64,000 nucleotides of DNA from Microbulbifer celer (lineage in GTDB: Bacteria; Pseudomonadota; Gammaproteobacteria; Pseudomonadales; Cellvibrionaceae): positions 2,011,501 to 2,075,500 of the forward strand of contig NZ_CP087715.1 in NCBI RefSeq assembly GCF_020991125.1, given 5' to 3'. The translations under genes and the position numbers were made by a program. Positions 46,198 through 47,847 of this stretch are shown here, piece after piece (position 1 is the first letter of the stretch; every line of letters begins with the position of its first letter). Under the pieces are notes generated by a model. The model saw only the letters and a list, made by a program, of their open reading frames with translations. It had not been told where the DNA came from and did not search any database.

Positions 46198-46228
46198 AAA
46201 TACTGACGGGAAATACTGGCAAATACTG
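46198..46228 (+). repeat. Three direct repeats of AAATACTG
   Basis: AAATACTG occurs at 46198-46205, 46211-46218 and 46221-46228, with start-to-start distances of 13 and 10 bp. Could be a tandem protein-binding site for the lipoprotein promoter or the RNA promoter just downstream. Confidence 0.6.
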
Positions 46229-46260
46229 GAAGTATCGCGAGCTGAATCTCGACTGACATT

Positions 46261-46288
46261 TTGACTGAAATGAAGCTGCCAGGATACT
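46261..46288 (+). promoter_or_regulatory. Promoter-like pair upstream of the structured element
   Basis: TTGACT (46261-46266), a 16-bp spacer and GATACT (46283-46288). A second possible -10, TAAACT (46345-46350), lies eight bases before the first helix of the structured element but has no good -35. Confidence 0.35.
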
Positions 46289-46357
46289 CAAATCAATGAG
46301 CGCCAATCCCCTCCCCGAAAGCGGCAACGCACCAACACCCTGCCTAAACTTTGATCA

Positions 46358-46552
46358 GCACCTGCTGAGGAATGTCAGGGAGCAGTAAACAATTTCTGAT
46401 GCCACGTAAGAGCGTAGCTTCGTCATTACGTGACGGCCAGGGCAGTGAGCAGTCGTCGTTGGTCTAACGCCAGAAATTTCAGGGAGCAGTAGTCTCAGCA
46501 GGTGCCGCCAGGGAATGGCGAAGGCGCGGTGTTCTAACGGACACCGCGCCTT
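46358..46552 (+). ncRNA. Candidate structured non-coding RNA or leader with terminator
   Basis: About 195 nt, no reading frame. Helix P1: GCACCTGCTGAG (46358-46369) pairs perfectly with CTCAGCAGGTGC (46494-46505). Helix P2: AATTTCTG (46391-46398) with CAGAAATT (46471-46478). Between P1 and P2 both strands carry the same 13-nt motif TCAGGGAGCAGTA (46375-46387 and 46479-46491). Inside P2: hairpin CACGTAA/TTACGTG (46403-46432) and small hairpin CGTT/AACG (46457-46469). Directly after P1: hairpin CGCCA-GGGAA-TGGCG (46506-46520), then the terminator stem (46521-46552). Every base from 46494 to 46552 lies in a helix or its loop. I know no matching RNA family. Confidence 0.65.
46521..46552 (+). terminator. 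Strong rho-independent terminator of the structured element
   Basis: AAGGCGCGGTGTTC-TAAC-GGACACCGCGCCTT followed by TTTATTG, a 14-bp stem with one G-U pair. No gene precedes it on the plus strand except the structured element. Confidence 0.9.
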
Positions 46553-46707
46553 TTTATTGTGGCGATACAATTTTATCGAAACGCCCACCTTCAGTATTTT
46601 CTGCGCGCATGAATGCCGAGCGCAGACAAATTATCCAACCCGACCTGAACTATCCTCAACGTCGTACCGGAACCTGTATCCTGCGCAGAAAATAACGGAG
46701 CAAGACC

Positions 46708-47847
46708 ATGTATATCAGTAGTGCATTTGACAGCGGCAATATCAAAGTCATTGACGCCAACAGTGATCCGATTCAACTCGCGATCAATATCGACAACCAG
46801 TCGGACTTCTACCAGTGGTTCCATTTCCGCCTGCAAGGCGACGTGGGTTCCGAATACAACCTGCAGATCACCAATGCCGGAAAAGCGGCCTACCCGAAAG
46901 GCTGGGAGAATTACCGGGTGTGTGCGTCCTACGACCGCCACAACTGGTTCCGTATTGATACGGAGTACGATGGCAGCGTATTGAACTTCACCGTCCCCCT
47001 GGAGCAACCCTCGATCTATCTCGCCTACTTCGCCCCCTTTTCCTGGGAGCGACACCTGGACCTCATCGCCTGGGTAGAATCCGATGAACGCGTCCAGTCT
47101 GAAACCCTGGGCCAGACACTGGACGGGCGCGACATGACTCTGCTCACCATCGGCAACCCGGAGCACGCCAAGCAGACAGTATGGATGATTGCCCGCCAGC
47201 ACCCCGGGGAAACCATGGCCGAATGGTTTGTGGAAGGCTTCCTGGAAACCCTGCTGGACGAATCCAATCCCGCGTCCCGCAGCCTGCTGACCGATACCGT
47301 GTTTTATGTAGTGCCCAATATGAACCCGGATGGCAGTGTCCGCGGCCATCTGCGCACCAATGCCGCCGGCGCCAACCTCAATCGCGAGTGGCAGAACCCA
47401 AGCATGGAGCGCAGCCCGGAGGTCTATCTGGTCCGGGAGAAAATGCTCGCTACCGGCGGCGACATATTCCTCGATATCCACGGTGACGAGGCGTTGCCCT
47501 ACAACTTTGTGGCCGCCTGTGAGGGCATTCCCGGCTACGACGAACATCACGCGAAGCTGGAACAGACATTCAAACAGGCTTTCGTCAAATCCAGTGCCGA
47601 TTTTCAGGTGGAAAAAGGCTACGAGCTGGACAAACCCGGCGAGGCGAACATGACTGTGGGCACCAATTGGTGCGGCCATCAGTTCCGTACCCTGGCGCTG
47701 ACCCTGGAGATGCCATTCAAGGACAACGAAAACCTGCCCGACCCGATTGAAGGCTGGTCTCCCAACCGTTGTCGTCAACTGGCACAGGACATGCTGTTCC
47801 CGATTCGCGAGACCCTTGCCTTTATCGCGGAAAATAAAAAGTCATAG
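46708..47847 (+). CDS. M14 zinc carboxypeptidase, cytosolic-carboxypeptidase-like
   Basis: 379 residues without a signal peptide, so probably cytoplasmic. An N-terminal beta domain (about 1-120, FYQWFHFRLQG) like that of eukaryotic CCP/Nna1 proteins precedes the carboxypeptidase domain. Zinc ligands H165, E168 (ARQHPGET) and H258 (IHGDE); NPDG at 206-209 and R226 (NLNREW) in substrate binding; catalytic E334 in LTLEMPF. The bacterial substrate of this M14 branch is unknown. The gene lies 155 bp after the structured RNA terminator, so it could be the target if that element is a cis-acting attenuator. Confidence 0.92.
   Translation: MYISSAFDSGNIKVIDANSDPIQLAINIDNQSDFYQWFHFRLQGDVGSEYNLQITNAGKAAYPKGWENYRVCASYDRHNWFRIDTEYDGSVLNFTVPLEQPSIYLAYFAPFSWERHLDLIAWVESDERVQSETLGQTLDGRDMTLLTIGNPEHAKQTVWMIARQHPGETMAEWFVEGFLETLLDESNPASRSLLTDTVFYVVPNMNPDGSVRGHLRTNAAGANLNREWQNPSMERSPEVYLVREKMLATGGDIFLDIHGDEALPYNFVAACEGIPGYDEHHAKLEQTFKQAFVKSSADFQVEKGYELDKPGEANMTVGTNWCGHQFRTLALTLEMPFKDNENLPDPIEGWSPNRCRQLAQDMLFPIRETLAFIAENKKS

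Follow-up and report, generated by a model that had tools for sequence, protein, structure and literature searches.

We find that positions 46357–46553 of the window (the whole 64,000-nucleotide stretch of Microbulbifer celer DNA analyzed here) probably hold a stand-alone small RNA gene of Microbulbifer whose product binds CsrA. Judged separately from the sequences, it is very probable that the RNA stands alone and quite probable that it binds CsrA. The initial annotation of the locus had described a structured RNA built from a 12-pair closing helix (P1), an 8-pair inner helix (P2), two copies of a 13-mer and a CGCCA-GGGAA-TGGCG hairpin abutting the closing helix. This observation is correct and goes beyond chance, with all of the named elements lying where they had been placed (Table 1). 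Directly after the hairpin (P5), where a terminator had been proposed, lies a terminator-like stem of 15 pairs with a T-run. The ends of the RNA were set from the spacing to the −10 element, the start of the first helix and the terminator.

Table 1. Features of the predicted RNA gene, its upstream region and two Csr-related loci of the same genome. Positions are those of the window unless a contig is given.
Feature	Position	Strand	Remarks
Small RNA gene	46357..46553	+	~197 nt; predicted, from +1 at 46357 to T-run
Upstream box	46283..46312	+	consensus AAAAGTTaACCaaNNNNNCGCCAAcTTT in relatives; own left half degenerate, CGCCAA kept
Promoter element TGCCTAAACTTT	46341..46352	+	nearly invariant; predicted −10 TAAACT at 46345–46350
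P1 closing helix, 5′ strand	46358..46369	+	GCACCTGCTGAG; pairs with 46494–46505, 12 pairs
ANGGA site 1 (AGGGA)	46377..46381	+	internal loop; aligned A and GGA in 46/48; N = G/T/A
P2 inner helix, 5′ strand	46391..46398	+	AATTTCTG; pairs with 46471–46478, 8 pairs
P3 hairpin	46403..46432	+	fold of own sequence; covariation in alignment
P4 hairpin	46435..46464	+	fold of own sequence; apex with conserved segment GGNCAGTNAGNAGTCG
P2 inner helix, 3′ strand	46471..46478	+	CAGAAATT
ANGGA site 2 (AGGGA)	46481..46485	+	internal loop, faces site 1; A and GGA in 48/48; N = G/A/T
Nearly invariant segment GCAGTAGTC	46486..46494	+	directly 3′ of ANGGA site 2
P1 closing helix, 3′ strand	46494..46505	+	CTCAGCAGGTGC
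P5 hairpin CGCCAGGGAATGGCG	46506..46520	+	adjoins closing helix; bears ANGGA site 3
ANGGA site 3	46510..46514	+	in P5 hairpin; A and GGA in 48/48
Terminator-like stem and T-run	46520..46553	+	15 pairs; compensatory changes in 47-sequence alignment
GacA/UvrY-like response regulator	G000:C1:1775528-1776163 (L144:1492-2151)	−	262 bits
GacA-type Rsm/Csr small RNA candidate	G000:C1:183440-183656 (L183 from 1501)	+	TGTAAGACATCTCTTACA box, 5 ANGGA sites, terminator-like stem

Distribution of the RNA

In a DNA search, the 221-base stretch at 46340–46560 had a single match in its own genome and matched 47 of the 48 Microbulbifer genomes, the missed genome (G033) being 80% complete. A covariance model (R1) built from these 47 sequences returned exactly one match in each of the 48 genomes, with that of G033 at 86.2 bits. 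When R1 was run with stricter filters over the 144 genomes of the family, matches were confined to 48 genomes, all Microbulbifer, and none of the 96 genomes of other genera had any. A second model (R2), to which the G033 sequence was added and for which laxer filters were used, gave matches at E values up to 10 in 9 of 40 sister-genus genomes, the best of them, judged on E value, at 0.9; a filter-free scan of 11 sister-genus loci encoding an M14 peptidase reached at best 11.2 bits (E = 0.3). Finally, scanning 84,980 species genomes with a strict pattern returned 26 stretches, all titled Microbulbifer, a number that, set beside the 48 genus genomes searched, marks the pattern as blind to diverged relatives; the window's own record was perhaps left out. 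At the sensitivity of these searches, the RNA appears to be confined to Microbulbifer.

The same searches bear on the idea that the locus is a mobile or repeated DNA element, or a set of chance inverted repeats. Its inverted repeats are prominent, and a further match, partial and limited to the terminator end, occurs in one genome (G022), although the model finds nothing there. However, the stretch has one match in its own genome, the same neighbor gene is present in 47 loci, the helices have compensatory changes and the promoter is conserved, so that we regard this idea as extremely improbable. A protein-coding explanation fared no better, as the initial annotation had held: no small ORF was conserved. 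An ATG stands at position 17 in 31 of the 48 sequences, and because the frames that open there differ widely in length (12 rows compared), we rejected it.

The most divergent relative, G033 (locus L081), has the promoter element, the upstream box, the structure and the GGA sites; inspection of this locus by eye found no clear terminator. Its RNA is flanked by a phage-type integrase upstream and an FtsX/MacB-domain ORF downstream.

Structure and covariation

The strand from 46350 to 46560 folds with a predicted energy of −88.6 kcal/mol, compared with −66.1 kcal/mol for shuffled sequences (z = −4.9). The segment 46357–46505 alone is 2.9 standard deviations better than its shuffles, of which 1 in 200 was equally good. 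The single-sequence minimum-energy fold lacks the 8-bp inner helix and has in its place a local hairpin whose strands are the first TCAGGGA and TTTCTGA, leaving site 1 paired. Among the 48 sequences, this hairpin fails in 13 at each of three pairs and has zero compensatory changes, whereas P2 is 100% paired, and we rejected the hairpin on these grounds. The proposed inner helix is thus borne out by the comparison of genomes and missing from the fold of the single sequence.

Covariation was assessed in two alignments, for both of which the shuffle counts ignore the relatedness of the sequences. In the first (A2; 47 sequences aligned with MAFFT, not fitted to the model, with the structure specified by us), 97.3% of cells are paired and changes on both sides occur at 8 of the 32 pairs; 13 of 500 shuffles reached 8 double-change pairs, and 101 of 500 reached its further pair types. 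The second (A3; 48 sequences) was fitted to the model, and its counts therefore lean toward the structure: 98.0% of cells are paired, and 14 of the 32 modeled pairs have changed on both sides, against at most 4 double-change pairs and 31–49% of cells paired in controls with slid partners. The initial annotation had proposed searching related genomes for covariance-model matches and for compensatory changes in the helices, and both are there, in all 48 genus genomes and at these 14 pairs, respectively. Parsimony on a tree built from unpaired columns counted 94 pair changes over the 32 pairs, unpaired states included, and assigned the most striking of them, C-G to A-U at columns 14/153, to one event.

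The support is spread unevenly over the helices (A3 throughout). Both-side changes were found at 6 of the 12 pairs of P1 (97.2% of cells paired), at all 6 modeled pairs of P3 (96.5%), at 1 of the 3 pairs of the P4 apex (100%), at 1 of the 7 modeled pairs of P2 (100% in 48 sequences) and at none of the 4 pairs of P5. With double changes at 1 of 7 and 0 of 4 pairs, P2 and P5 are kept in these sequences, yet hardly tested by variation. Judged by eye, the P4 stem extends downwards in some relatives (GUGG/CCAC in L047, GUGAC/GUCGC in L035), and its apex segment (46441–46456) is conserved in 47 sequences and less kept in G033.

Three ANGGA sites and the duplicated motif

The 13-mer TCAGGGAGCAGTA occurs at 46375–46387 and 46479–46491, and with up to one mismatch allowed it has 2 matches in the window versus 0.04 expected. 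It had been read as a two-fold symmetric binding site, a reading that holds for its core and not for its full length. In only 13 of the 48 genomes do the copies match at 12 positions: GGAGCAGTA is kept in the second copy in 45 of 48, and the first copy drifts to GGAGATGTA, GGAGAAGTA or GGAGATTTA. What both copies have in common is ANGGAG.

The same core emerges from the alignment columns. Across the structural alignment, which has 156 columns, windows consisting of a conserved column, a variable column and three conserved columns occur exactly three times, each time as A-N-GGA; none of 200,000 column shuffles gave three such windows, and 10 gave two. The 47-row alignment that includes the terminator has two further windows, one at the P4 apex (GNAGT) and one in the terminator (CNCGG). 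At all three ANGGA sites N is G, T or A and never C. The three are intact together in 46 of the 48 rows, and both departures are at site 1, which reads AAGGGATG in L045 and ATTGGAG in G033.

In the structure supported by covariation, two of the sites lie in the internal loop and one lies in a hairpin loop. In solved RsmE–RNA structures the bound motif, A(N)GGAX, sits on a stem, and its variable N and X positions are looped out (PMC4005645). No columns of the P5 hairpin core vary more than those of N and X, and X is absent in three sequences.

Predicted promoter, upstream box and terminator

Within the promoter element, CTAAACT is present in 48 of 48 genomes and the other positions of TGCCTAAACTTT are kept in 46–48; no −35 element is conserved upstream of it in the 48 genomes. 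Counting from the −10 element places the predicted start at 46357, so that the first helix begins with the next base. We take CTAAACT to resemble RpoS promoters. A sigma-70 consensus scan does not list the TGCCTAAACTTT promoter, listing instead TTGACT-16-GATACT at 46261–46288 on the same strand, and for this reason we lowered our estimate for a stand-alone RNA from nearly certain to very probable.

The upstream box, placed by the best score among offsets 41–44, carries CGCCAA and lies 43 nt (37 genomes) or 42 nt (11 genomes) before CTAAACTTT. Its CGCC is exact in 46 of 48 genomes; the own genome scores 11 out of 26. In many relatives the box is an inverted repeat, AAAAGTTRACC...CGCCAACTTTT, as in AAAAGTTAACCAACCGCACGCCAACTTTT of L014 and AAAGTT...AACTTT of G033. 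A search of 8 genomes with up to two mismatches gave 20 matches, versus 13 for the reversed pattern. All four perfect matches and three of the four with one mismatch sit at this promoter, so that exactly one one-mismatch match falls away from it; the own promoter is unmatched. The exact GacA box, TGTAAG-N6-CTTACA, is absent at the RNA locus, and its single copy in the own genome is at 183440.

At the other end of the gene, the terminator scan alone proves little, in that terminator-like sites also arise in shuffles (mean of 1.2 in the 801-base region concerned). The T-run is short in some relatives, for example in L023.

The M14 gene and the neighborhood

Downstream of the RNA, an M14 peptidase gene (domains PF18027 and PF00246) starts at 46708, and the initial annotation had offered as one of its two readings that the RNA is a leader controlling this gene. 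Such a cis-acting leader of the M14 carboxypeptidase might be riboswitch-like or a CsrA-controlled attenuator, and it would fit the position of the gene, which, G033 apart, follows on the same strand at a distance of 72–311 nt in every one of the 47 loci. Yet the terminator stem intervenes, and the length of the gap varies. Moreover, no M14 match was found on the 9.4-kb contig of G033, where the RNA is kept together with its promoter element, upstream box, structure and GGA sites. The converse arrangement is found in sister genera, in which 12 of 50 genomes have an M14 match: the RNA is absent from the flanks (~1.5 kb) of all 11 M14 loci scanned, these being 11 of the 13 returned, with two weak partial matches left out. 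On the other side of the RNA, a minus-strand lipoprotein-like ORF is also kept, as judged by its C-terminus, in 11 of the 17 loci listed, which indicates that the neighborhood is stable in general. We therefore consider a cis role for M14 unlikely; the leader reading is weakly borne out at best, and we give it very little credence.

In several relatives the RNA is preceded by a Ysc84-like lipoprotein gene, and positions 46221–46253 of the window may be the C-terminal remnant of one, a doubtful match of 11 residues (E = 0.81).

Probable CsrA binding and competing roles

On the reading that we prefer, a stand-alone RNA that binds CsrA, CsrA dimers would bind site 3 in the P5 loop, and sites 1 and 2, placed opposite one another in the internal loop, could each occupy one face of a single dimer; we infer that facing, paired sites suit a dimer with two equal faces. 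By lowering free CsrA, the RNA would relieve target mRNAs. A putative activator acting at the upstream box (about −60) may switch the RNA on, perhaps in stationary phase. This activator would be something other than GacA, whose probable target is a second, classical Rsm RNA encoded at another place in the genome. If so, the RNA would add a compact, deeply conserved design of CsrA-binding RNA with a non-GacA input, and its facing ANGGAG sites in one internal loop would make a small, testable substrate for a CsrA dimer bridging two sites.

The other reading of the initial annotation, a CsrA-sequestering small RNA of a new architecture, is well supported by the three ANGGA sites with N free, the presence of a csrA gene, the compensatory changes and the lack of an Rfam match, with CsrA binding itself being putative. 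We are less sure that sequestration is its main task, because GCAGTAGTC and the P4 apex are, in these alignments, nearly as conserved as the ANGGA sites and are not asked for by the CsrA consensus. For the same reason, the RNA is not accounted for by CsrA binding alone. In weighing the preferred reading we also counted against it that there are only three sites, that site 1 departs in 2 of 48 rows and is paired in the fold of the single sequence, that the sigma-70 scan passes over the predicted promoter, that the own upstream box is degenerate, and that M14 comes after the RNA in all 47 loci other than G033, so that a cis role still has some room.

Two other readings give the additional conserved segments a task. 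In the first, which we consider possible but doubtful, the RNA is a base-pairing or scaffolding small RNA for which CsrA binding is secondary, as for E. coli McaS and GadY: conserved loops containing GCAGT would base-pair with mRNAs or serve as a platform for another protein, with CsrA tuning or protecting the RNA. GGAGCAGTAGTC and the P4 apex are nearly invariant beyond what the CsrA consensus asks for, as this reading would have it, but both the pairing and the second partner are hypothetical. McaS and GadY presumably resemble the Microbulbifer RNA in function, in that possible sites for CsrA are combined with further conserved segments. There is precedent in that both are base-pairing RNAs of E. 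coli proposed to bind and antagonize CsrA (PMC7652899). The second reading, to which we likewise assign a rather low probability, is a CsrA-gated switch, in which one dimer would clamp the two facing ANGGAG sites and thereby select P2 over a hairpin that hides site 1, with GCAGT segments being exposed or masked for a putative second partner. Were this reading true, the RNA would be a signal-integrating switch under a non-GacA activator and not a plain sponge.

Comparison with known RNA families

The Rfam check suggested at the outset found no match for the RNA: with Rfam 15, only a tRNA in the window matched at gathering score, and at E values up to 10 there were five matches near the RNA locus, the best with E = 1.7, all of them far under the cut-offs. 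The alignment therefore yields a covariance model for an RNA missing from Rfam 15. Two known families were considered by name and rejected. The RsmZ model (RF00166) had 8 matches in the own genome at E values up to 10, the best at 24.5 bits against a cut-off of 44 and none at the RNA locus; 12 of 14 control genomes also match at lax E values, and five of the matching loci (L123–L126 and L128) are, by eye, terminators. 6S RNA, at about 185–200 nt and with a long closing helix, is like the Microbulbifer RNA in size and closing helix, but a 6S RNA is encoded elsewhere in the genome (110 bits).

The closest functional comparison is with CsrB/CsrC and RsmX/Y/Z. Like them, the Microbulbifer RNA is apparently free-standing, has a predicted terminator stem and several ANGGA sites, one of them in a short hairpin loop, and comes from a gammaproteobacterium with CsrA. 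Transcription of CsrB/RsmYZ-type small RNAs is usually, though not universally, driven by GacA/UvrY through TGTAAG-N6-CTTACA. Unlike them, the Microbulbifer RNA has neither the exact GacA box nor an Rfam match, is strongly conserved outside its GGA sites, and has three sites only, at fixed places, two of which face each other in one internal loop between the 12-bp closing helix and a helix bearing two hairpins. For comparison, CsrB has 22 GGA motifs (PMC7652899) and RsmZ eight (PMC4005645). No such RNA was apparent in the accessible parts of open-license papers on Microbulbifer with small RNAs or CsrA, and Microbulbifer is not mentioned in the main text of a study that looked for RsmA RNAs by machine learning (PMC5568370).

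The Csr circuit of Microbulbifer

The genome has one match to CsrA, and its GacA/UvrY-like response regulator reaches 262 bits with the UvrY model, for which the cut-off is 280 and the next best score 128. The exact GacA box was found in 5 of 13 genus genomes searched, 4 times at the locus of the Rsm candidate and once, in G014, in another setting, the remaining 8 being without it. At 20 of these candidate loci that we read, the own one included, there are 5–7 ANGGA sites, with the exact GacA box present in 18 of 20. The loci L183 and L186 had no Rfam match at E values up to 0.1. From these features, a classical Rsm RNA appears to operate in Microbulbifer alongside the RNA of the window. Both have ANGGA sites, a terminator-like stem and genus-wide DNA; the Rsm candidate, set apart by features only, differs in its TGTAAG-N6-CTTACA box, in having 5–7 sites whose number varies, and in an N that is mostly A or C. 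With such a candidate in the same genomes, the Microbulbifer Csr circuit becomes open to experiment. All 48 genus genomes contain DNA similar to the candidate locus of G016, 16 of them over just part of its length by best match, and four of the 48 have two matches.
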